NCBI GenBank assembly: GCA_016744855.1
Contig: JADGDO010000001.1
Coordinates: 328,811 to 373,485 of the forward strand
Reading direction: 5' to 3'
DNA: 44,675 bases
DNA from: Candidatus Fermentibacteraceae bacterium
GTDB taxonomy: Bacteria > Fermentibacterota > Fermentibacteria > Fermentibacterales > JCC-6
The translations under genes and the position numbers were made by a program. The notes beneath the pieces were generated by a model. That model was not told the DNA's origin, searched no databases, and saw only the letters and a list, made by a program, of their open reading frames with translations. Of this stretch, positions 1 through 31,779 are shown piece by piece. Within the stretch, counting starts at the first letter, position 1; every line of letters starts with the position of its first letter.

Positions 1-834
1 GTTCATGAAGCTGGAGCATTAATTCTAATAGATGCTGCTCAGCTTGCTCCTCACCGTAAAATTGATGTCAAGCCAGATGATCATCCTGAGCATCTGGACT
101 TTGTTGTGCTTGCAGGACACAAAATGTATGCACCATACGGAACCGGTGTTCTTATCGGGCCCCACCATGCGTTCCTTAATTGTTCTCCAGACTACAGTGG
201 TGGTGGCACGGTAAGTGTTGTTACTCCTGATGAAGTATACTGGGCAGATCTTCCCGATAAGGAAGAAGCCGGCAGCCCCAATGTTTCAGGTGCAATAGCA
301 ATGGCAGCGTCCGCACTAGCTCTGATGAACTATTCAATGGAAAAGATCGAGAAGCATGAAGTCGAACTGACACAATACTCCCTCAAGCGTCTAAAAGAAG
401 TCCCGGGAATGATAATCTACGGTGAAAGCGATCCATCCAAACTCGATAGAGTGGGTGTTATTCCATTCAATGTCGAAGGAATTCAGCATTCTCTTCTCGC
501 TGCAATTCTCGGTTATGAGGGTGGAATCGGTGTAAGAAGCGGCTGTTTCTGTGCACACCCATACGTTGTCAGTCTTCTCAACCTATCTCAAGAGGAAGCA
601 GAGTCCTGGAGAGATGAATTTCTTGCAGGGGACAAATCCCAAATGCCGGGGATGGTACGGATGAGCCTCGGATGCTACAGCACGAAGGAAGATGTTGACC
701 ATCTTATCTCAATGCTTAAAAAAGTAGCCGCGGGTGACTATAAAGGAAATTATGAAGTGGTTAAGAAAACTGGAGAATACATTCCAGTTGGATATGTCGA
801 ACCTTTTGATGACTACTTCAAATTCAACAGATAA
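1..834 (+). CDS. Class V aminotransferase, cysteine desulfurase-like (5' partial)
   Basis: The reading frame is open from base 1, so the start lies outside the window; 277 residues are visible. PLP-dependent fold-type I enzyme of the NifS/SufS/CsdB class. The Schiff-base lysine lies in AGHKMYAPYGTG (codon 121-123). Near the C-terminus GVRSGCFCAHPY resembles the SufS/CsdB loop that carries the persulfide-forming cysteine (codons 544-546 and 550-552 are both Cys). Family members remove sulfur from cysteine to give alanine and a protein persulfide. Two cysteines spaced CFC is not the canonical RxGxHCA motif, so a selenocysteine-lyase-like or divergent class V enzyme is possible. A terminator follows directly. 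Confident about the family, less about the exact substrate. Confidence 0.88.
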   Translation, partial: VHEAGALILIDAAQLAPHRKIDVKPDDHPEHLDFVVLAGHKMYAPYGTGVLIGPHHAFLNCSPDYSGGGTVSVVTPDEVYWADLPDKEEAGSPNVSGAIAMAASALALMNYSMEKIEKHEVELTQYSLKRLKEVPGMIIYGESDPSKLDRVGVIPFNVEGIQHSLLAAILGYEGGIGVRSGCFCAHPYVVSLLNLSQEEAESWRDEFLAGDKSQMPGMVRMSLGCYSTKEDVDHLISMLKKVAAGDYKGNYEVVKKTGEYIPVGYVEPFDDYFKFNR

Positions 835-858
835 ATCTTTCTCTTTCCAGTCTACACT

Positions 859-885
859 AGCCGGCCTTAACAGGTCGGCTTTTCT
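859..885 (+). terminator. Rho-independent terminator of the class V aminotransferase gene
   Basis: A 9-bp stem (AGCCGGCCT / AGGTCGGCT, one G-T wobble) with a 4-nt loop is followed by TTTTCT, 25 bases after the stop codon. Confidence 0.75.
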
Positions 886-987
886 ATATTGTTACCTTTC
901 CTCATTTCCTCAGATTTACTCAGCTCAGTATTTGGATGTAGAAGTCGGTGTTGTATGGAGACCGGAAAAATCACAGATATACTTGAA

Positions 988-2079
988 TCAATCAACTGAT
1001 AGAAGAAACACCCTTGGGTATTCTTCAGTGAATGGTGCCCATGCAATTGCTCCATGTTCGTTAATCACATAATTAAGTCGACCATTCTCAGGTATGCCAG
1101 TTATTCTTCCCTCGCAGGCAATCTCACCATCCTGGTTGTAAAGAAGCCATTCTTCCTGATTGGTTGTACCTTTTCTTACCCACAAGCGGTTTTGGTAATC
1201 AAACCCAAGGGATCCAACCTGAGGTCTGAATGAGATTGATTCAGATTCGAGGTCGACAACTGCACCTCCGGTAGAATAATTCACATAAACTTTTGGTTCA
1301 ATGTACCCCACATCCGAGGAATCAACTTCTACTTCCTCAATTGCCTCACCAACGATGCATCCTGAAGAACCGTCCATCGTGTCAACAAAATCAATAGAGA
1401 AATCGGAGTTATCCATTAGAGAGAAAAAGATTTTGCCGTTTCCAGAACAGCACGAAATGTATCCGGGAGAAAAAACAAAATCTAAGCCCGTGTAAGCGCT
1501 TCTCCAGCTCCAGATCTCCTCTTTGAAACCTGTCGTATCCCAGATATCCAGGTTGAAGCCCATGTCGAAATCTTCCCCATCTGATCTTGTTGAATAGTAG
1601 TATATCATAAATGAAGAGTCAGCTACAGCTACCATGGAAAAAGGAAGAATCGCATTTCCTGTTTCGATTGAATTCAGCAACTCCCCATCCTCTGAAAGAA
1701 TTTCGATGCGTCTTTTAACAAGGTCGGTAACAGCAACTCTACCATCATCAAGAATGGCAAAATCAAGTGGAAGTAAGAATTCCCCCGGACCTTCTCCCTT
1801 TCCTCCAATAGCCCGGAGAAATAATCCGTTACTATCAAAAAATGAGATCTTACAGCTGTACAAGTCAAGAACTGCAACTCCCCCATTCTGAGTTGGAAGA
1901 GCACTTGCTATCTCTCCGAATACATAATTACTGTCTCCCATCATTTCTCCTACAGTAGAGGCATATTCGATATTTTCAACTGGCTGTTGGTCAATTTCTT
2001 CAACCATTTCCACTTCAACCTCGCCACATCCGGTAAAAATGGAGAGAAGAACAATGCACAAAACAGTGAAGATTTTCAT
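988..2079 (-). CDS. 6-bladed beta-propeller lipoprotein
   Basis: A 363-residue exported lipoprotein. The signal peptide ends in a lipobox (IFTGC, Cys18), followed by an acidic linker rich in E and V. The body has NHL/6-bladed propeller-type repeats, including the signature GGKGEGPGEF, also seen as GGSGQGPGEF in the lipoprotein at 42501-43619, so the two are distant paralogues. I chose ATG at 2079 because AGGAAG precedes it at good distance and the signal peptide begins there; an in-frame ATG at 2130 would add 17 non-signal residues. Its ATG overlaps the stop of the upstream TfoX-like gene (ATGA), suggesting translational coupling. Ligand and role are unknown; a periplasmic or surface binding role is only inferred. 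Confidence 0.8.
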   Translation of the reverse strand: MKIFTVLCIVLLSIFTGCGEVEVEMVEEIDQQPVENIEYASTVGEMMGDSNYVFGEIASALPTQNGGVAVLDLYSCKISFFDSNGLFLRAIGGKGEGPGEFLLPLDFAILDDGRVAVTDLVKRRIEILSEDGELLNSIETGNAILPFSMVAVADSSFMIYYYSTRSDGEDFDMGFNLDIWDTTGFKEEIWSWRSAYTGLDFVFSPGYISCCSGNGKIFFSLMDNSDFSIDFVDTMDGSSGCIVGEAIEEVEVDSSDVGYIEPKVYVNYSTGGAVVDLESESISFRPQVGSLGFDYQNRLWVRKGTTNQEEWLLYNQDGEIACEGRITGIPENGRLNYVINEHGAIAWAPFTEEYPRVFLLSVD

Positions 2080-2411
2080 TTTTTCTTCCTCTTGGTTGAA
2101 GACGGAATCTTCAGTGAGATAAGAGCCCATGAAGAAAACTCTGCAGAATCCTCGAGTACCCTGGGAGGAATTTCATAGTATTGCATATACATTTCTTTGT
2201 CTGGAAAGGGTTTGAAGCGGGAGGAACCTTCATTCTCGTAATCAATTCTGTTGGAATCATCTACTTTCAGGTAAACAGTATCATCGGCCACAAGACCAAA
2301 GATTTTTCCACCTCGGTAAAGCCCTGCCCCACCGAACATTTTTCGGTGAGTTACCTGAAGTTCTGACAGCTGATCTTTGAGGTATTCTAGAAATTCATCA
2401 CTGACAGCCAT
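2076..2411 (-). CDS. TfoX N-terminal domain-like protein
   Basis: A 111-residue cytoplasmic protein. The segment RKMFGGAGLYRGGKIFGLVA is the hallmark of the TfoX N-terminal domain family, followed by YLKVDD and a Pro-rich YEIPP region. The C-terminus is a basic run (STKRKKK). The family is named after a competence regulator, but stand-alone N-domain proteins are widespread and mostly uncharacterised, so no competence role is claimed. AAGGA lies 7 bases before the ATG. The gene is first in a two-gene unit with the propeller lipoprotein (4-base ATGA overlap), an odd pairing of a cytoplasmic and an exported product. Confidence 0.8.
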   Translation of the reverse strand: MAVSDEFLEYLKDQLSELQVTHRKMFGGAGLYRGGKIFGLVADDTVYLKVDDSNRIDYENEGSSRFKPFPDKEMYMQYYEIPPRVLEDSAEFSSWALISLKIPSSTKRKKK

Positions 2412-2481
2412 TTTTCATTCCTTCCCCTAACACCTTAATAGTCAATTGAGAAGATCTACAAACACCGAATCATTTCTTTCT

Positions 2482-4713
2482 CTAGTTCAACATAACTACA
2501 GGCTGAACAAGACTTCTGCTCTCAGTTTGCAATCTGCAGTAGTAAAGTCCATCCGGTACATCTCTCCCATTTGCATCTCTGCCGTTCCACAAAGCATGAA
2601 TATCTCCGCCTTTAGCCGTATCAAGAGGCATCGTTTGAATGATTCTTCCAGAAGTATCATAGAAATTAATGCGAGCAATTTCTCCAGCGAGAACTGAGCA
2701 GTAGATATTCAGTGTCCCAACGCATGGAGAGGCCCCAATGCGAAGAGAAATATCAGGAGCAATCACTGCTTCAGAGAGATCCTCAATTGAGGTAACAGAC
2801 TGGTAGAGGTAGGGAGACATGTTGAATTGCGTTGCCGTTACATAAACGTCTGAAGCTGCGGTGAAATCCGGAATGGTAAAGGAAACATTACCGGCTGCAT
2901 CAGTATAATCGGAGTTCATCCAGGAGCCAGAAGCTGAATCGTAGACCTTTACTGCGATGAGGGCTCCTTCGAGTGGAGTTCCGTCAGCGCTGACATTGTA
3001 AGTTGATGTTCCCGGAACAATAGGATCAGGGTGTTCAACAGTAATGAGCGGTAGTGGAGCTGTATCGTAATAGATATCCATTTCGGGGCATCCGAAGAGC
3101 ATATGCATGTGATTGTTATCGACAGCGGAAGAGCCGTAGTAGTTGAAAACCTCGTTCTTAGACCAATCTGTTACTGCACCCATGTGTCGTACTTCCTCCT
3201 GGAAGTATCCTTTAAAAATCCATTTAACTAAGGAATCCGCAGCACCGTATGGGCTGTTTGTTGTTGGCCCCATTGCACCTATGGCACCTCTGGCGTCACC
3301 GATGGAACCCTCACCCATAAGCGCTTCGCAGAAGCAGTAATTACCGTCAAACATTCCGACCTGACATGCAACAAGTGCGAACCAGGGCAGTTTTCGCCCG
3401 TTCTGAAGAGCGGCAATATCTCCAGTATCAAATGTAGGTGGATAGATAGTAGTCACATCACCATGCCCGCAGTGACCTAGTATGGATATACCGTCGTTTA
3501 TCACTTCAGAGAGGTTGGCAACAGTGGGAGTTATCCCCCCGTTTGCGCACAGCCAGAGAGGACTCATTCCAGCAGCCATCATGTATTCCATGTATTCCCA
3601 TGAGTTTTCTGTGAACTCTGTATGACCCAGACTAACACCCTTTTGAAACCAGCTCTCTTCGCCCTCATAGGGGTACATTTCATGCTGGACTATTTTCCAA
3701 GCTTCATACTGAAGATCTTCAGTGTCCTGCCCGGAAAGCCTTCCGACGTGAATACTTGGCACGCAGCCGGAACCGATAACACCATAAATATTATCTGCAG
3801 AATGCCCATTGTATGTTGGTGATGGAACAACATCTGCATCTCCTGCAATGAGGATGTACTCTGGGGGTACGGCCCAGGTATTGAAGGCTTCTTCAATATA
3901 AGCATCAATTTCCGTTGAAGTTGTACCAATTTCAGGAATAACTCCTGTGACAACCTCAAAGCCCTTTCTGTTTTTCCAGTTGATAAGATGGCTTACTTTA
4001 TCAATTCCTTCAGCAGTCGATATAACAAGATAGCAACCGTCAACAAGATTCCTCTGTAAATCAAGACCTACAACGCTATCGTAGAATGGCATAAAACTTC
4101 TTGTAAGAGAATTTGCCGGTCTCGTAAGCTCATTCGCTCCATCTGCTTCACCACTAAAGAACCTAACAGTAACAGAAGTAGTTATCTCCAGATTGCAGGA
4201 AGAGGGATTCCAGGAAACCGGAAAAAACAAAGCCCGTACTATTCTTATATCTCGAAGTATCTCAACTGACTCAATATCTACGGGAGAGCCAGGCCAGGAA
4301 TCATCTCCTTCGTAAAACTCCTCATCAATCCTCTCGCTCTCTCTGGATTCTCCCCTAACAGGCAGTGGCTGAAATGGAAAAATGCTACCGGGTAAATGTA
4401 TCGTATAATGTGATGATTCAATAATTTCAACGCTCATATCTCCAGCAGAAGGCACTTGAATCATCCTCCTGATGACAGGTAAGTCAGGTAGCCCCGGAAC
4501 AGCTGCTAAACCTTCACCAGGAACCCTGAGGACTGAGTTTAAGCCGAATTGTTCGTATTCAAGTGTGGAAAGGTTGAATTTGACGGTGATACCATCGTTA
4601 TCAGAAGAAATTACCTCGGTAATTCTTTGAACTGAGGGCTCGTTGTAGAGTGTACCAGCATACATAGAGCTAATAGCAAGAAGTAATAAGATAAACTTAG
4701 GAGAAACAGTCAT
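2482..4713 (-). CDS. Secreted C25 (gingipain-like) cysteine peptidase with C-terminal sorting-like tail
   Basis: 743 residues. Signal peptide at 1-19 (hydrophobic LLLLAISSMYAG), propeptide-like N-terminal region to about 220, then a C25 catalytic domain: YILIAGDADVVPSP, the His in GHCGHG (His417) and the Cys in ALVACQVGMFDG (Cys450) match the His-Cys dyad of gingipain-type peptidases. An Ig-like segment follows (about 560-640). The last 90 residues form a FlgD-like/type-A sorting tail (INFYDTSGRI..., ALWNGRDANGRDVPDGLYYCR). GGAGG stands 5 bases before the ATG. C25 enzymes typically cleave after Arg or Lys; specificity cannot be read here. Length and architecture fit exported gingipain relatives in FCB bacteria. 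Transcribed divergently from the C10 peptidase. Confidence 0.9.
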   Translation of the reverse strand: MTVSPKFILLLLAISSMYAGTLYNEPSVQRITEVISSDNDGITVKFNLSTLEYEQFGLNSVLRVPGEGLAAVPGLPDLPVIRRMIQVPSAGDMSVEIIESSHYTIHLPGSIFPFQPLPVRGESRESERIDEEFYEGDDSWPGSPVDIESVEILRDIRIVRALFFPVSWNPSSCNLEITTSVTVRFFSGEADGANELTRPANSLTRSFMPFYDSVVGLDLQRNLVDGCYLVISTAEGIDKVSHLINWKNRKGFEVVTGVIPEIGTTSTEIDAYIEEAFNTWAVPPEYILIAGDADVVPSPTYNGHSADNIYGVIGSGCVPSIHVGRLSGQDTEDLQYEAWKIVQHEMYPYEGEESWFQKGVSLGHTEFTENSWEYMEYMMAAGMSPLWLCANGGITPTVANLSEVINDGISILGHCGHGDVTTIYPPTFDTGDIAALQNGRKLPWFALVACQVGMFDGNYCFCEALMGEGSIGDARGAIGAMGPTTNSPYGAADSLVKWIFKGYFQEEVRHMGAVTDWSKNEVFNYYGSSAVDNNHMHMLFGCPEMDIYYDTAPLPLITVEHPDPIVPGTSTYNVSADGTPLEGALIAVKVYDSASGSWMNSDYTDAAGNVSFTIPDFTAASDVYVTATQFNMSPYLYQSVTSIEDLSEAVIAPDISLRIGASPCVGTLNIYCSVLAGEIARINFYDTSGRIIQTMPLDTAKGGDIHALWNGRDANGRDVPDGLYYCRLQTESRSLVQPVVMLN

Positions 4714-4818
4714 TTAGACCTCCAGAAGAAAAGATGGGCTGATTATTACATATACATATATATACGCTTCTCTATACAGAAAACCCATAACGCACTGTGT
4801 AGAAATTTAATAGGTAAA

Positions 4819-4848
4819 TTGACATGTGTTTAATTGTTTCGCTATCAT
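4819..4848 (+). promoter_or_regulatory. Candidate sigma-70 promoter of the C10 peptidase gene
   Basis: TTGACA (4819-4824) and TATCAT (4843-4848) are separated by 18 bases. The gene's GGGAGGG ribosome-binding site (4879-4885) and ATG (4888) follow at normal distances. The 174-bp gap is shared with the divergent C25 gene. Confidence 0.55.
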
Positions 4849-4887
4849 CACTGCAATTAATAAGTCCGAGCTAAAACTGGGAGGGTT

Positions 4888-6360
4888 ATGAAAAATTCAG
4901 CAATACTTTTTCTTTGTTGTATCATTTTCGGAGGAATCGCAATAGCAAATCCTGTTTCAGCAAGTGATGCTGAAGCTGCAGCCCTCGCTAGACTTTCAAG
5001 GGACAACCAGAGTAATTCAAGACTAATTACTAACCTTTTTCCCGTTCAAAGCACTCTTTCGAGCTGGCCGATTGCCTATATCTTTGAACTCTCTCCCACC
5101 GGCTATGTAATCACTTCAACTGACACTCGCATTTCACCTGTAATCGCTTATTCATACCTCAGTGACTGCAGAATCAGAGGAGAATCAGAAAGTATCCTGA
5201 TCGACCTGGTAAGAACAGACCTGCAGCAGAGGATTTCTTCACTCGAAGAAGTACCATTGGAAATGCAGAATGCAAATATCCGCTCCTGGAATGAATATGT
5301 TTCCGGAGTCTTTACTAATACACTTCTTGAACAGTGGCCCCCGGCAGGTTCAACTCCTACAGAAGGTTGGCTGGAAGAGAACTGGTCCCAGAGCTCTCCC
5401 TATAATTTTTACTGCCCAATGGACCTCACCTCCTCCTCAAGAAGCATAGCTGGATGCCCTGCAGTGGCAATGGGAATGATCTTGAATTTTCTGAAAACAA
5501 CAAACAACACCAGATTCAATGATGGTGACGACTATTTTCACAATTACAACGAGTACTACTGGATTGATGATGATTACGAAGCACATGATTTTCCATCATG
5601 GCCGATCCTGAATGAATACCTTACAGAACTTGACAGCCTGTATGAAAATCAACTTCCTCTCAAGGATACAGACAAGGCTGCCCTCGTGTACGCAAGTGGA
5701 GCTGCCTGCAAGCAGGTTTACACATCCTCTGTTTCAGGAACTTTCGGTGTAATACAAGCTTTCAATGCCTATCAGAGATTTGCGTTCACTGAGAGTGAGT
5801 TACTCGATTCGTCTTCTGATAGTCTTTTCGAGCGACTTTCAGAGAACATGATAAATGCATTACCTGCTCATCTCGCAATAATAGATGCGGCATCGCAGTA
5901 CGGTCACAATGTTGTGCTGGACGGATACAATACAGACGAATTCTACCATATCAATTTCGGCTGGGGTGGAAGCAACAATGCCTGGTATCAGTTTCCCCTG
6001 GCAGGAATGCCCTACAGTATGAACATTATCGAAGGCATTATCCTGGACATTTCCCCTACCTCTCAGTCCATCTCAGAAAACCCGGATGCTGGCAGAGGTG
6101 AATTTGCTCTCTTGTCCTCTTTATCCAATCCAGTATCTACCCAGGCAGATTTCCAGTTAACAACACCTGTTACATGCAACTTAACTCTTTCGGTGTTCTC
6201 TATTTCAGGCAGATGTGTTGATACCATTCTTGAGGGTAGTTTTGCAGCTGGAGTACACAATTTCGCTTGGATTCCCAGAGATCAACCTGAAGGTATATAC
6301 CTTTTGAGAGCATCTGGTAATGATTTCGATAAAACACTCAAGATTACTCTGATACACTGA
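4888..6360 (+). CDS. Secreted C10 (streptopain-like) cysteine peptidase with sorting-like tail
   Basis: 490 residues. Signal peptide (to about residue 25), a Spi/streptopain propeptide-like region with GYVITSTDTRISPVIAYS, then a C10 catalytic domain. The catalytic Cys190 is in AGCPAVAMGMIL and His340 in YGHNVVLDGY, followed by INFGWGGSNNAWY, which carries the conserved Trp and Gly of the family. The last 85 residues form a FlgD-like tail ending in GIYLLRASG..., similar to the C25, M28, FG-GAP and RCC1 proteins of this window. It is probably activated by propeptide removal after export; that is family knowledge. GGGAGGG precedes the ATG. It stands back to back with the C25 peptidase, so the two secreted proteases may share regulation. 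Confidence 0.9.
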   Translation: MKNSAILFLCCIIFGGIAIANPVSASDAEAAALARLSRDNQSNSRLITNLFPVQSTLSSWPIAYIFELSPTGYVITSTDTRISPVIAYSYLSDCRIRGESESILIDLVRTDLQQRISSLEEVPLEMQNANIRSWNEYVSGVFTNTLLEQWPPAGSTPTEGWLEENWSQSSPYNFYCPMDLTSSSRSIAGCPAVAMGMILNFLKTTNNTRFNDGDDYFHNYNEYYWIDDDYEAHDFPSWPILNEYLTELDSLYENQLPLKDTDKAALVYASGAACKQVYTSSVSGTFGVIQAFNAYQRFAFTESELLDSSSDSLFERLSENMINALPAHLAIIDAASQYGHNVVLDGYNTDEFYHINFGWGGSNNAWYQFPLAGMPYSMNIIEGIILDISPTSQSISENPDAGRGEFALLSSLSNPVSTQADFQLTTPVTCNLTLSVFSISGRCVDTILEGSFAAGVHNFAWIPRDQPEGIYLLRASGNDFDKTLKITLIH

Positions 6361-22699: not shown

Positions 22700-24160
22700 T
22701 CAACCATTGATGATCCCCGGTCCGTAGGGAGCCAGACTGATGGTTATATAGGAGCAGGTAGCTGCATCTTTGGTTTCGTAAGCAAACTGCCACATCTTTC
22801 GACACATCTCCTTGATTACAGGTTTCATAGATAGATCATCGATTAGATTCTTCATTTCGTAGGGATCAGTTTCCAAATCATATAACTCATCGTAATCAAA
22901 CGCATTGAAGACATATTTGTATTTCTTGTTGAATACAGATCTTTGAATCCCGTAAATTTCATTACCGTTGGTCTGAGTGAAAAGATCAGTTCGCCAATCA
23001 TCAGGTTGAGAATCTCTGAGAAATGGAACAAGTGATCTGCCGGTGAATTCTATATCTGATTCAATCCCGGCCAATTCCAGTATTGTGGGTCCGAAATCCG
23101 CCAAGGATACCAGATCATCCACGACTCCGGGAGATATTCCCGGACCGCTAACAGCACTGCAAATATTGTACCCTTCCTTAAAACATGGCAGGCCCTTTGT
23201 CCATAAGCCGTGTGCTCCCATGTAATCACCATGATCGGTCAGGTACATGACTATTGTGTTGTCTTGAATCCCTTTTTCACTGATAGAGTCAAGAACCTCC
23301 CCAAACAGATAGTCCTCATAGGAACAGTAGGCATAATACCTTCTGATGCTTTCCTTATGCTCCTCTTCCGTAAGATCAAATCTTTCCTGCGTTCTTCGAT
23401 ACAAGGCTGGTTTGTCTTCCATTGAATCATGGAAATTGGGAGGCAGTTCTATCTCCACATCCCTATATAGATTCAGGAACCTTTCAGGCGGCCTGTAGGG
23501 ATCATGGGGTCCTACAGTACCAACAAACATGAACATGGGTTTTTCGCTGCTGTAATCCCGAATTGCTTTACATGCTGCTTCAACTCTTTGATTGTCATTA
23601 TACGGATTATCTGATACTCCGAAGTGAACATACTTCTGGTATCCCTCTCTTATGATCCTGCCAAACGACTTCTCATTTGTTTCTTTATCATATTCTGTTA
23701 CACCGTCAAAAACCCGGTCCCATTCCCTGGCGATAGGTTTGTTCTCTTCAGGGAAACTGCCATACTTGACGCCTTCCTGGAGAACCCTGTTGAATCCCCT
23801 GTCCGATGGACCTTCAAACGCACTCACATGCCACTTCCCGGCAAACAGAGTTTCATATCCGTTTTTCTGCAGTTCCTCAGGCCACATCCTGACCCCGTCA
23901 AATACTGTTCTGGAGATGGCATTGTCAACTAATACATTATTCCAGACTCCATGTTCTGCAGGAAACAAACCGGTAAAAAACGTTGCTCTACTGGGGCAGC
24001 AATGAGGAGCAGGACAGTAACTCTCAGTGAAATGTTTTGCATTCTCCAGAAATCTGTCAATATTGGGTGTCTTTGCTGGTGAGTCCTTCAGCATTGTCGA
24101 AGCATTCTGTTGATCTGTCATGAATACTACAATATTGGGTTTACTCATTGTGTGACACAT
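22700..24160 (-). CDS. Cys-type sulfatase (S1 family)
   Basis: 486 residues (ATG 24160; ATG 24148, starting MSKPNIVVFMTDQQ, is also possible). The metal-binding N-terminus IVVFMTDQQ and the formylglycine motif CCPSRATFFTG (CxPSR; Cys54 would be oxidised to formylglycine) define an S1 sulfatase. YLTDHGDYMGAHG carries the second metal and phosphate-side residues. No signal peptide is seen, so desulfation would occur in the cytoplasm, unlike many periplasmic polysaccharide sulfatases. Cys-type rather than Ser-type. First gene of the minus-strand operon with GH36, GH4 and the maturase that would activate it. The sulfated substrate cannot be named. Confidence 0.92.
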   Translation of the reverse strand: MCHTMSKPNIVVFMTDQQNASTMLKDSPAKTPNIDRFLENAKHFTESYCPAPHCCPSRATFFTGLFPAEHGVWNNVLVDNAISRTVFDGVRMWPEELQKNGYETLFAGKWHVSAFEGPSDRGFNRVLQEGVKYGSFPEENKPIAREWDRVFDGVTEYDKETNEKSFGRIIREGYQKYVHFGVSDNPYNDNQRVEAACKAIRDYSSEKPMFMFVGTVGPHDPYRPPERFLNLYRDVEIELPPNFHDSMEDKPALYRRTQERFDLTEEEHKESIRRYYAYCSYEDYLFGEVLDSISEKGIQDNTIVMYLTDHGDYMGAHGLWTKGLPCFKEGYNICSAVSGPGISPGVVDDLVSLADFGPTILELAGIESDIEFTGRSLVPFLRDSQPDDWRTDLFTQTNGNEIYGIQRSVFNKKYKYVFNAFDYDELYDLETDPYEMKNLIDDLSMKPVIKEMCRKMWQFAYETKDAATCSYITISLAPYGPGIING

Positions 24161-24546: not shown

Positions 24547-26358
24547 TTACTTAAGAACAACAACTCGCTCTGTTGAAGCAAACCCTTCAGCTTGCATGTT
24601 GCAGAAATAAACTCCCGCTGAAAGACCGGAAAAATTCACTGAATGTGTACCAGTAATAAACTCCTGTGAAACACTACCAACAACTCTTCCGGAAACATCA
24701 TAAACGAAAAGTTCTACCATCCCTGTTTCTGGAACTGATACCAAAGCTAAAAAGAAACCGTGAGATGGATTCTCAGATACAAGTAATGACCAGGAATGTT
24801 CGGTGTCGGCAATTCCTAATGGAGAGTAACTAAAGGATACTTCAAACACTTCCGGGGAAACCGTGGGATCAGATCTTTCTAAAATAGCTTTGTACTGAAG
24901 ATACCTCGTGGAATTTGCAAGAATTCCAGAAAGAGGAGTATCTGGAGAATACACCGTATCAGACCAGGCTCCCATATCTGAATAATCCTGTGAACTTCTA
25001 AACTGATAACTAACAGAAGAACCTGAAGGTATCTCTGAGCTAGACATGAAGGTGTCCCAAGTCTCTACTCCACCGGTATCAAGTATGGAAGATTCAATGG
25101 TGCCTGTTGCTTGATAACTAAAGATATTCCACCAGCTGATGAAGCCATTATATAATCCAGATCCCAAAACATCTGGATATCCATCTCCATCAAAATCGGC
25201 GGAGTATACAGACCATGCTCCATAAAATGCTCCATCGACTGTATGTTCTATCCAACTTGTCCCTGTGCCATCTGCGTTCTCCCACCAGGTGATGAGACTA
25301 CTTTCACATGAAGCTCCCAGAACATCTACATCTCCGTCTAGATCGACATCAGCGGAGCAAACAGAGTAAGACCCATCATAATCTCCATCAACTACATGCT
25401 CAATCCAACTTGATCCTGAACCATCTGCATTCTCACACCAAATAATGTCATCAGCATTGTGTGCAGCTGATAGGATATCTTCATCTCCATCTCCATCCAC
25501 ATCGGCGGAAGCAACAGAGCGAAACCTTTCCCAAAGTACATCGATTTCATGCTTAGTCCAGCTTGTTCCAGTGCCATCCACATTCTCCCACCAGTTTATC
25601 GTACCGGAAAACTTCACGCTTCCCAGAATATCTGCATCTCCATCTCCATCAACATCAGCGGAGAAAAGTGATGTGGTAGAAGAAACACCCGAATCAACGA
25701 CATGTTCTATCCAATTTTCTGCTGAACCATCTGTGTTCTCCCACCATGAGAGGTCAGAAGAATATTCTCCATGCGCCAGAATATCGGCATCACCATCGCC
25801 ATCGACATCAACTGCGGAAACAGCACGAACTATATCAACTGCCCCATAAATAGTATGCTTTATCCAACTTGTTCCAGTGCCATCTGTATTCTCCCACCAG
25901 GCTATGGTATAGGCACCGTGTCCAGTTCCCAGAATATCAACATCACCGTCACCATCCAGATCGGTTGAGTAAACAGACCAGGCTCCATTAAAGTCTCCAT
26001 CAACTATATGCCTAGTCCAATTTATTCCAGTACCATCTGTGTTCTCCCACCAGGCTATCTGATCAAGATTCTTCGCAGCTCCCAGGACATCTGCATCTCC
26101 ATCTCCATCTATATCGGTGGCGTAAATTCTTTTCCAACCAAAAAATCGGGAGTCAACTGTATGCTCAAGTGATGGAATGAGTTCATTTGTCAATTTCAGC
26201 TTCTGTCCATTGAAATCAATGTGATCTGAAGTCCAGAAGAAATTACTCCAGTCGGAAACCGGGCCTTCTACACCCCCACCGCCAGACCAATCGGTCTGGG
26301 TTACTGTGCTAGCGAATACCATTGAAAAGAGCAATCCAGACAGTAAAATAGAGCGCAT
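24547..26358 (-). CDS. Secreted seven-repeat FG-GAP/VCBS protein with sorting-like tail
   Basis: 603 residues. Signal peptide (SILLSGLLFSMVFAS), then seven FG-GAP/VCBS repeats (about residues 60-420), each with D-x-D-G-D-G-D-x-D calcium-binding loops and WWENxDGTG. Seven repeats suggest a seven-bladed calcium-stabilised propeller. A beta domain follows (VSYQFRSSQDYSDMGAWSDT), then a FlgD-like tail ending in RVVVLK. GGAGG precedes the ATG. Probably surface-exposed or secreted, with binding or adhesion the likely role. The protein at 33791-35620 is a close paralogue with the same seven-repeat plan and end. It sits between repeats R1 and R2. Confidence 0.88.
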   Translation of the reverse strand: MRSILLSGLLFSMVFASTVTQTDWSGGGGVEGPVSDWSNFFWTSDHIDFNGQKLKLTNELIPSLEHTVDSRFFGWKRIYATDIDGDGDADVLGAAKNLDQIAWWENTDGTGINWTRHIVDGDFNGAWSVYSTDLDGDGDVDILGTGHGAYTIAWWENTDGTGTSWIKHTIYGAVDIVRAVSAVDVDGDGDADILAHGEYSSDLSWWENTDGSAENWIEHVVDSGVSSTTSLFSADVDGDGDADILGSVKFSGTINWWENVDGTGTSWTKHEIDVLWERFRSVASADVDGDGDEDILSAAHNADDIIWCENADGSGSSWIEHVVDGDYDGSYSVCSADVDLDGDVDVLGASCESSLITWWENADGTGTSWIEHTVDGAFYGAWSVYSADFDGDGYPDVLGSGLYNGFISWWNIFSYQATGTIESSILDTGGVETWDTFMSSSEIPSGSSVSYQFRSSQDYSDMGAWSDTVYSPDTPLSGILANSTRYLQYKAILERSDPTVSPEVFEVSFSYSPLGIADTEHSWSLLVSENPSHGFFLALVSVPETGMVELFVYDVSGRVVGSVSQEFITGTHSVNFSGLSAGVYFCNMQAEGFASTERVVVLK

Positions 26359-26583: not shown

Positions 26584-26868
26584 AGTGTAAGCCGTCCCCG
26601 TGTTGCGCGGTTTATGCGCTCCATGGGTCTGAAATGCCGTACAGTAAAGAAGTTTACTACTACGACAAATTCAAAACACAACAAACCCATCTCGCCGAAT
26701 ATTCTTGATCGTAATTTTACTGTTGGCTCTCGGAACAAAGCCTGGGTAAGCGACATCACTTACATGAAGGTAGGTAGGAAATTCGTTCAGAGAATGAGTC
26801 GCAAAGGAAACTGCTGGGACAATGCTGTGGCTGAATCCTTTTATCTATTTGCAATGGTTTATAAGGCT
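26584..26868 (+). pseudogene. IS3-family transposase (OrfB) remnant with internal deletion
   Basis: Translates to RPRVARFMRSMGLKCRTVKKF...TTNSKHNKPISPN, then WVSDITYMK, then directly MSRKGNCWDNAVAESFY. In intact IS3-type transposases about 100 residues of the DDE domain separate the DIT and GNCWDN blocks; here they are missing (junction near 26770-26795), and the reading frame then runs into repeat R2 instead of the normal C-terminus. The upstream part and the partner orfA are absent. So an inactive fragment. I cannot see terminal inverted repeats. Confidence 0.85.
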
Positions 26869-26950
26869 GGTATCCCACCTGATTGCCATTTGGAAACTTT
26901 TCATCCCCTGGATCACAAAGCTCAATGAGCTACGATTTCACGGTTCAGCA
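26869..26950 (+). repeat. Dispersed repeat R2 (5' part)
   Basis: GGTATCCCACCTGATTGCCA then TTTGGAAAC match the start of R3, R4 and R7; similarity fades after about 80 bases. It abuts the transposase remnant. Confidence 0.6.
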
Positions 26951-27151: not shown

Positions 27152-27916
27152 ATGAAGACTTTACTTTATGCTTCTATTATTTCTTTATCTCTTGTCGGAT
27201 GTGGCACAAGTTTAATAGTGATCCAAGAAGGTCCAGTCGAAGGAATGACATTTGTTCAAATGCCTGGTGACAATTTCCAGATGGGCTCCCCTTCTTCAGA
27301 ATCTAATCGAGGTTCAGATGAATCCCGTCATACTGTCCATGTGGGTAGTTTTGAGATGATGAGTACCGAAGTAACCCAGGGAATGTGGGAAGAGGTTATG
27401 GGCAGCAACCCCTCTTGTTTTAAGAAGGGTGATAATTATCCAGTTGAGAGTGTTTCCTGGAACGACTGTCAGGAGTTTATAGACAAGCTTAATGATCTTG
27501 ACCCTAGCCACACTTACAGATTGCCTACAGAGTCAGAGTGGGAGTTTGCCTGCCGTGCAGGTACCAGCAGTGCTGACTTCTGGGGTAGTAGTTCATCCGA
27601 GAATGCTATTAGTAGTTATTGCTGGTACACCGAGAATTCAAGTTCCTCAACACATCAGGTAGGCACTAAGAGTCCTAATGCTTGGGGTCTTTATGATATG
27701 ACTGGCAATGTATGGGAGTGGTGCGAAGATTTTTACACAAGCGACTATAGTGACTGCCCTACAGACGGTAGAGCATATAGTGGTCATAGCTCGAACCGTG
27801 TCATCCGTGGGGGCAGCTGGCGCAGCTACGCCAAGGGCTGTCGGTCTGCGAATCGCGGCAGCAGCATCCCGGGCTACCACTACGACGGTTTCGGTCTGCG
27901 CCTTGTCAGGTCATGA
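27152..27916 (+). CDS. SUMF1/FGE-domain lipoprotein, probable retroelement-diversified protein
   Basis: 254 residues. Lipobox LSLVGC (Cys17), then a formylglycine-generating-enzyme-like C-type-lectin fold: FVQMPGDNFQMGS, VTQGMWEEVMGSNPS, PVESVSWNDCQEF, YRLPTESEWEFACRAG, GLYDMTGNVWEWCED and RVIRGGSWRS. True FGE needs two cysteines in GGSxLCxxxYC; the first is replaced here (Ser), so sulfatase activation is unlikely despite the sulfatase operon 3 kb away. The last 40 codons are GC-rich and C-ending, unlike the AT-ending codons before them, and look like a diversity-generating retroelement variable region (see 27797-27916). Probably a surface-displayed ligand-binding protein. Bounded by R2 and R3. 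Confidence 0.88.
   Translation: MKTLLYASIISLSLVGCGTSLIVIQEGPVEGMTFVQMPGDNFQMGSPSSESNRGSDESRHTVHVGSFEMMSTEVTQGMWEEVMGSNPSCFKKGDNYPVESVSWNDCQEFIDKLNDLDPSHTYRLPTESEWEFACRAGTSSADFWGSSSSENAISSYCWYTENSSSSTHQVGTKSPNAWGLYDMTGNVWEWCEDFYTSDYSDCPTDGRAYSGHSSNRVIRGGSWRSYAKGCRSANRGSSIPGYHYDGFGLRLVRS
27797..27916 (+). other. Putative diversity-generating retroelement variable region (VR)
   Basis: The 3' end of the SUMF1-type gene. Codons at the sites that vary in such proteins are nearly all NNC: CGC AGC TAC (27821-27829), GGC (27836), GGC AGC AGC ATC (27857-27868), TAC CAC TAC GAC (27875-27886). Each can be derived from a template AAC by adenine-specific substitution. The codons between (GCC AAG, TGT CGG TCT GCG AAT CGC, CCG GGC, GGT TTC) match the constant framework RGGSW...A...CRSANR...PG...GF of known retroelement targets. 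No template repeat or reverse transcriptase lies in the window. Confidence 0.6.
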
Positions 27917-30567: not shown

Positions 30568-31779
30568 CTATCTCAGAAGAATAACACGAGTTGAGGAAGA
30601 GCTTTCATATCCACTTACAAGACGGATGATGTAAACTCCATTGGCAAGAGTTTCACCGTTTGAGCTGCTGCCATTCCACAAGATGCTATGCTGACCTTCG
30701 GATTGGGCTCCAAGTTCCTGGTTTTTAACGAGTCTGCCTGAAACATCGTAAACTTCAAGAGTGACCGAAGCAAGCTCTGGAGACTGGAACACCACGGAAG
30801 CCGAGCTGATGATGGGGTTAGGATGAACAGTGTTGATAGATAGGGTACTGTGAATAAGAAGGTCATATGTCTCATCCACTGAGCTTGAACCATCTTCCCG
30901 CATGCCGAGGCTATAATAACGCCCCCCAGCAAGCGCCACGAAACCCTCATAGGTGTCAGGTACAATACACTGGCCGTACTGGTTCCGTCCCCATGCAACA
31001 ATCGAGCCGTCTTCCTTCAGGCCAAGGCTGTGATACCATCTCCCATTAAGTGCAACGAAATCTTCATTTGGGGAGGGAACATCGCACTGGCCATAATTAT
31101 TACGGCCCCATGCAACAATAGAACCATCGTCTTTCAAGGCAAGACAGTGCCACACTCCTGCCGATACTGCCACGAAACCCTCATTGGGCAAGGGTATGTT
31201 AAACTGTCCTTCGCCGTTGTTTCCCCATGGTACTATTGAGCCATCTTCCTTCAAGCCAAGGCTGTAAGATCCACCTCCAGATACCGCCATGAAACCCTCA
31301 TTGGGCGAGGGTACATTACACTGGCCATGATCGTTCATTCCCCATGCAACAATTGAGCCGTCTTCCTTCAGGCCGAGGCTGAATCTCCACGCCCCTGCAA
31401 CCGCCACGAAATCCTCATTCGGCGAGGGTACATCGCACTCGCCGTATTCGTTCAATCCCCATGCAACTATCGAGCCGTCTGCTTTCAAGCCAAGGGAGTG
31501 CCACTCTCCCGCTGCGACTGCCACGAAAGCCTCATTGGGGGACGGTACATTACACTGTCCGCTATAGTTGTCTCCCCATGCCACTATCGAGCCGTCTTCC
31601 TTCAGGCCAATGCTGTGACCCAGCCCCGCAGAAACCGCCACGAACCCCTCACTGGGCGAGGGTACATTGCACTGACCGAGGTTGTTCCGCCCCCATGCCA
31701 CTATCGAGCCGTCCTGTGCAAGGGCAAGCCCCACAAACCCCAACATTAGTAACGCTGATAAGACTGCTAGAGCCTTCAT
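30568..31779 (-). CDS. Secreted RCC1-repeat protein with seven 39-residue repeats and sorting-like tail
   Basis: 403 residues. Signal peptide (LSALLMLGFVGLALA), then seven tandem units of exactly 39 residues, each starting DGSIVAWG, with GQCNVPSPNE in the middle and HSLGLKE at the end; only units 5 and 7 depart clearly. This is the RCC1/BNR-type pattern and would fold as a seven-bladed propeller. A FlgD-like tail follows (VTLEVYDVSGRLV, ILWNGSSSNGETLANGVYIIR). The DNA repeats are similar enough for unit gain or loss. GGGAGGA precedes the ATG. Bounded by R4 and R5. Function not known; an exported binding protein is likely. Confidence 0.88.
   Translation of the reverse strand: MKALAVLSALLMLGFVGLALAQDGSIVAWGRNNLGQCNVPSPSEGFVAVSAGLGHSIGLKEDGSIVAWGDNYSGQCNVPSPNEAFVAVAAGEWHSLGLKADGSIVAWGLNEYGECDVPSPNEDFVAVAGAWRFSLGLKEDGSIVAWGMNDHGQCNVPSPNEGFMAVSGGGSYSLGLKEDGSIVPWGNNGEGQFNIPLPNEGFVAVSAGVWHCLALKDDGSIVAWGRNNYGQCDVPSPNEDFVALNGRWYHSLGLKEDGSIVAWGRNQYGQCIVPDTYEGFVALAGGRYYSLGMREDGSSSVDETYDLLIHSTLSINTVHPNPIISSASVVFQSPELASVTLEVYDVSGRLVKNQELGAQSEGQHSILWNGSSSNGETLANGVYIIRLVSGYESSSSTRVILLR

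Follow-up and report, generated by a model that had tools for sequence, protein, structure and literature searches.

A probable diversity-generating retroelement target of the formylglycine-generating-enzyme type in a Fermentibacterota genome

Introduction

The closest described relatives of the gene presented here encode TvpA of Treponema denticola and related variable lipoproteins of diversity-generating retroelements (DGRs). These are likewise lipoproteins with the C-type lectin fold of the formylglycine-generating enzyme (FGE) subtype, and the frame of their C-terminal variable region (VR), RVLRGGSW...C...R...PG...LGFRL, is common to both. TvpA differs in that it belongs to another phylum, and that neither a reverse transcriptase (RT) nor a template repeat (TR) was found in the present genome. 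In T. denticola, the core and its targets are far apart, and there are isolates that retain targets without a core (PMC4891356). TaqVP of Thermus aquaticus (5VF4) and Mtd of a Bordetella phage are also DGR variable proteins of the FGE subtype of this fold (PMC6328139), but their sequence identity to the present protein is low (about 16%). The formylglycine-generating enzyme SUMF1 (2q17) shares fold and Pfam family with it, whereas the protein described here is a lipoprotein, carries a VR-like tail and leaves the copper cysteines unmatched.

In cyanobacteria, transposases occur near DGR loci and have been proposed to disperse targets (PMC7517822). Roux et al. stated for their metagenome survey that remote targets are undetectable by its method (PMC8144416). 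Our literature search found no dedicated DGR paper for Fermentibacterota, and a search on orphan DGR targets returned nothing.

Results

The window, i.e., the whole analysed stretch of 44,675 nt, lies well within contig C19 of a 107-contig metagenome-assembled genome (MAG) of 3.24 Mb, which is 94.9% complete. Its closest relatives among named collections are MAGs of Candidatus Fermentibacteraceae, Sabulitectum and Aegiribacteria, so that the host is presumably a Fermentibacterota bacterium. At 27152..27916 (+), it contains an FGE/SUMF1-type lipoprotein gene of 254 aa, for which we propose a role as DGR variable protein based on its Pfam and PDB sequence matches. The FGE-sulfatase domain PF03781 covers residues 33-253 (E 1.5e-44). 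Direct reading of the sequence gives the signal peptide MKTLLYASIISLSLVGC (27152..27202, +) with the lipobox LVGC and an expected acylated Cys17; the lipoprotein is presumably located on the surface and may bind ligands there. Among PDB sequences, TvpA of T. denticola (2y3c) scores best, with an E-value of 1.3e-33, and FGE enzymes follow far behind (2e-15). The initial annotation had reported that the first copper-binding cysteine of FGE is lost. In the HMMER alignment with the Streptomyces coelicolor FGE, this residue is indeed unmatched, yet it is not the only one, as the second cysteine of the LCHDSYC pair has no counterpart either.

The AlphaFold2 model of the lipoprotein (pLDDT 89.9) overlays TvpA with a Z of 32.7 over 227 residues at an rmsd of 1.8 (VIA-align), and also TaqVP (Z 14.6) and Mtd (Z 13.9). 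Together with the TvpA sequence match, this agrees with the C-type-lectin-fold frame recognized earlier and indicates a domain of the FGE subtype that has the VR at its very C-terminal end. However, PvdO reaches a Z of 32.1 and thus ties with TvpA. Since PvdO and FGE have the same fold, fold likeness alone does not prove a DGR function, and such proof rests on the codon evidence instead.

The core of the variable region, RGGSW...GLR, spans residues 219-250 (27806..27901, +) and equals the VR and TR of complete FGE-type DGRs in length and register. Its twelve NNC codons (27821..27886, +; residues 224-226, 229, 236-239 and 242-245) read CGC AGC TAC GGC GGC AGC AGC ATC TAC CAC TAC GAC, which confirms the dozen all-NNC codons listed previously. 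All twelve probably go back to AAC codons in a template that was either lost or not assembled. The last 40 codons had also been described as much GC-richer than the rest, and the GC content is 44.5% over the first 218 codons compared with 66.7% over the remaining ones. As the supposedly constant tail codons have a high GC3 as well (0.70 vs 0.40 in the body), this jump exceeds the loss of A in the variable codons.

Within the 32-codon stretch, all 12 listed codons but only 7 of the 20 others are NNC (Fisher p=2e-4), and the binomial probability of 12/12 against the upstream NNC fraction of 0.24 is 4e-8, both values resting on sites chosen by eye and post hoc. For this reason, the sites were re-defined from independent data, namely five real templates of other organisms, and a codon counted as a site if one or more of these templates had AAC there. 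By this definition, 11 of 12 sites are NNC in the lipoprotein tail compared with 8 of 20 elsewhere in the stretch (p=0.005), and stricter definitions gave a contrast in the same direction with p between 0.01 and 0.12. NNC codons are therefore found where real templates have AAC. The alignable tails of other FGE-type genes in the same genome have NNC at 4 to 6 of the 12 positions, and the homologues L052, L054 and L056 mix NNC with other codons. The complete set of NNC codons without third-position drift suggests a recent diversification.

The GC-rich constant 3' block GGTCTGCGCCTTGTCAGGTCA (27893..27913, +) is a candidate initiation-of-mutagenic-homing site. It occurs once in the entire assembly, and related blocks terminate the VR-bearing genes of two MAGs, G001 (two genes) and G005 (one gene), of the same genus. 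Protein conservation may account for part of the block, because it encodes the conserved RL(A/V)RS. A further occurrence in G005 (L236) lies in a gene that is not of the FGE type and was considered a chance match.

For comparison, complete FGE-type DGRs with RT, AAC-rich template and VR were recovered by protein search from Eisenbacteria, Bacteroidales and viral contigs, and the lipoprotein tail agrees codon by codon, in length and register, with their VR and TR. In a Candidatus Eisenbacteria cassette (L124, JAGMBO010000049.1), the RT at 3903-4964 with the motif LPIGSLTSQ is followed by a TR reading RGGSWNNNARNCRSANRNNNRPGNRNHNNGLR, and two VRs are located at 2589 and 7444. Its TR and VRs share length, register and the block TCT GCG AAT CGC with the present VR; in contrast to our locus, the RT, the TR and both VRs are clustered in about 5 kb. 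The mismatches of the two VRs fall on TR adenines in 18/25 and 17/32 cases, and those of L114 in 20/22 cases, these fractions being lowered because the compared stretches overrun the repeat at their 3' ends. The same layout, in which an AAC-rich copy is accompanied by one or more VRs, recurs in L114, L135, L162 and L164, and an RT of the L124 type was recognized in L114, L124, L135 and L162. A BLAST-based self-scan for TR/VR pairs was too strict, and direct comparison found pairs that it had missed. The exact VR or TR frame was not found in the scanned viral contigs. The 4.5-kb viral contig L164 has, within 278-4305, three VRs together with a copy of the RGGSW tail that is richer in AAC. In a Planctomycetaceae contig (L148, 2221-15433), RGGSF...GFR tails that vary in sequence occur about twelve times in 13 kb and may represent an expanded array of DGR-like targets.

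Two adjacent FGE genes of G001 (contig C104, L226 4813-5691 and 6035-6979) allow a direct comparison of paralogues. In the bodies, 68, 51 and 115 of 237 codons differ at positions 1, 2 and 3, respectively, a pattern usual for genes that diverge under purifying selection. In the tails, the corresponding counts are 8, 11 and 4 of 38 codons (body vs tail, Fisher p=0.003), set in a nearly identical backbone. Judged from these sequences, the position 1-2 differences between the tails are a DGR signature that plain gene conversion would not produce. The bases flanking the VRs match at 28/30 just before and at 15/15 and 14/15 just after, and identity drops farther out on both sides. A third, partly drifted tail of this kind was found in G005, and the three tails match no other DNA within the genus than one another.

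Neither an RT nor an AAC-rich template is present in the window, as had been noted before. The whole assembly gave the same picture, so that the earlier caveat that the VR would be served in trans or be a remnant was appropriate. Searches with the RVT_1 profile and a DGR-RT profile yielded no match in the assembly, although the former does pick up genuine DGR RTs such as that of L124 (E 1.9e-17). A TR was sought in the same genome by BLAST with the VR as query and via GGTCTGCGCCTTGTCAGGTCA, neither of which revealed one, and a pattern search gave chance-level matches only. The genome-wide check proposed by the initial annotation, for an AAC-rich near-repeat with adenines at the VR sites and a DGR-type RT, thus found neither among the 107 contigs. 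The lack of a template in a closed genome had been named as an observation against the DGR reading, a situation that does not arise with a 107-contig MAG. Because the assembly is 94.9% complete, absence of RT and template from the organism itself is unproven.

The search was extended to the order. An AAC-substituted hypothetical template detected no TR in 42 genomes, and the sole match of a degenerate TR pattern was the VR of G005 rather than a TR. One match in G028 (L012) lies outside any FGE gene and was taken as chance. No DGR-type RT was recognized in the 41 further genomes of the order, and G001 and G005, both with VR-like tails, had no RT matches at all. Where inspected, the RTs present in the order resembled those of group II introns or of defence systems, in a classification by eye that covered the loci apart from minus-strand ORFs of some of them and several short fragments.

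Directly upstream of the lipoprotein gene, direct reading of the sequence revealed a short ORF (26614..26928, +) resembling a truncated IS3-family transposase. It contains the motif RKGNCWDNAVAESF, which we take to be IS3-family transposase-like, and a Pfam search of the ORF returned no significant match. This fragment is a possible agent in dispersing a remote target. A sulfatase with the Cys-type motif CCPSR (22700-24160, -) is located 3 kb from the FGE-type gene. The locus is flanked by FG-GAP and RCC1 repeat proteins (24547-26358, -, and 30568-31779, -), both of which carry Por secretion C-terminal sorting domains that point to a type IX-like secretion route.

Discussion

The initial annotation had read this gene end as a DGR variable region, and the codon register of complete cassettes, the TvpA match and the differences between the G001 paralogues largely support this. 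We therefore regard the lipoprotein gene as a DGR target, an FGE-subtype C-type-lectin fold ending in a variable region, with a probability of about 0.9. In the mechanism that we propose, a DGR RT would copy a near-identical template RNA and misincorporate opposite adenines, and the resulting cDNA, anchored at the GC-rich constant block, would take the place of the gene's 3' end. In this way, some twelve AAC codons would be turned into NNC, with the RGGSW/CRSANR/GLR scaffold preserved, and cells would display differing binding surfaces. Adenine mutagenesis is thus the likely origin of the codon pattern.

The neighboring CCPSR sulfatase, together with the Pfam family name, raised the question of whether the gene encodes an ordinary FGE-type enzyme, for example the maturase of this sulfatase, with a tail that is GC-rich by chance. 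This was rejected because the copper-site cysteines are missing. A lipoprotein signal, a far better match to TvpA than to any FGE and a tail that differs in composition and codon pattern from the genome's other FGE-type genes leave it hardly any chance. A tail made by ordinary gene conversion or by transfer from a GC-rich organism would produce the codon pattern without a retroelement. It would fit the GC-rich constant codons, and a foreign composition could partly account for the GC-rich NNC codons. However, it explains neither 12/12 NNC codons and 11/12 at AAC sites of real templates nor the position 1-2 differences of the G001 paralogues, and we consider it very unlikely.

If the gene is a DGR target, the absence of RT and TR from the assembly means that the core was either systematically unassembled or lost. 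We give both cases about equal weight, each a little short of an even chance. In the former, RT and TR would reside on an unbinned or broken contig, a plasmid or a phage and act in trans on a remote target that is still active. The intact ORF, the undecayed VR and the 3' block agree with this; such targets are established in T. denticola (PMC4891356) and cyanobacteria (PMC7517822), and the survey of Roux et al. would, by its own statement, miss them (PMC8144416). Against it, a core was recognized in 0 of 42 genomes of the order. In the latter case, the core would have been deleted later, or the gene acquired alone with its VR, and variation would have ceased recently. The lack of RT and TR in a 94.9% complete assembly and of a recognized DGR-type RT in 41 further genomes (G001 and G005 with their VR-like tails among them), the mixed codons of L052, L054 and L056 and the IS-like fragment beside the gene favor a remnant, for which T. 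denticola strains without a core provide a precedent (PMC4891356). The recent diversification suggested by 12/12 NNC codons without third-position drift speaks against it, and assembly and binning of DGR loci in MAGs may be poor.

The kind of system, an FGE-type DGR target, is already known; what is new is its extension to the candidate phylum Fermentibacterota. Our work adds a clear core-less target in a metagenome-assembled genome, a situation that the large survey, by its own account, would not detect (PMC8144416), and the VR codon pattern by itself can lead to such targets. A DGR RT adjoining GGTCTGCGCCTTGTCAGGTCA or TGTCGGTCTGCGAATCGCAACAAC on an unbinned contig would support action in trans. 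More speculatively, and in our view rather unlikely, Fermentibacterota chromosomes may carry DGR targets whose core diversifies them in trans from a replicon of its own, for example a phage or a plasmid, that is seldom recovered in assemblies. If this were true, surface proteins of the host would be rewritten by a mobile partner.
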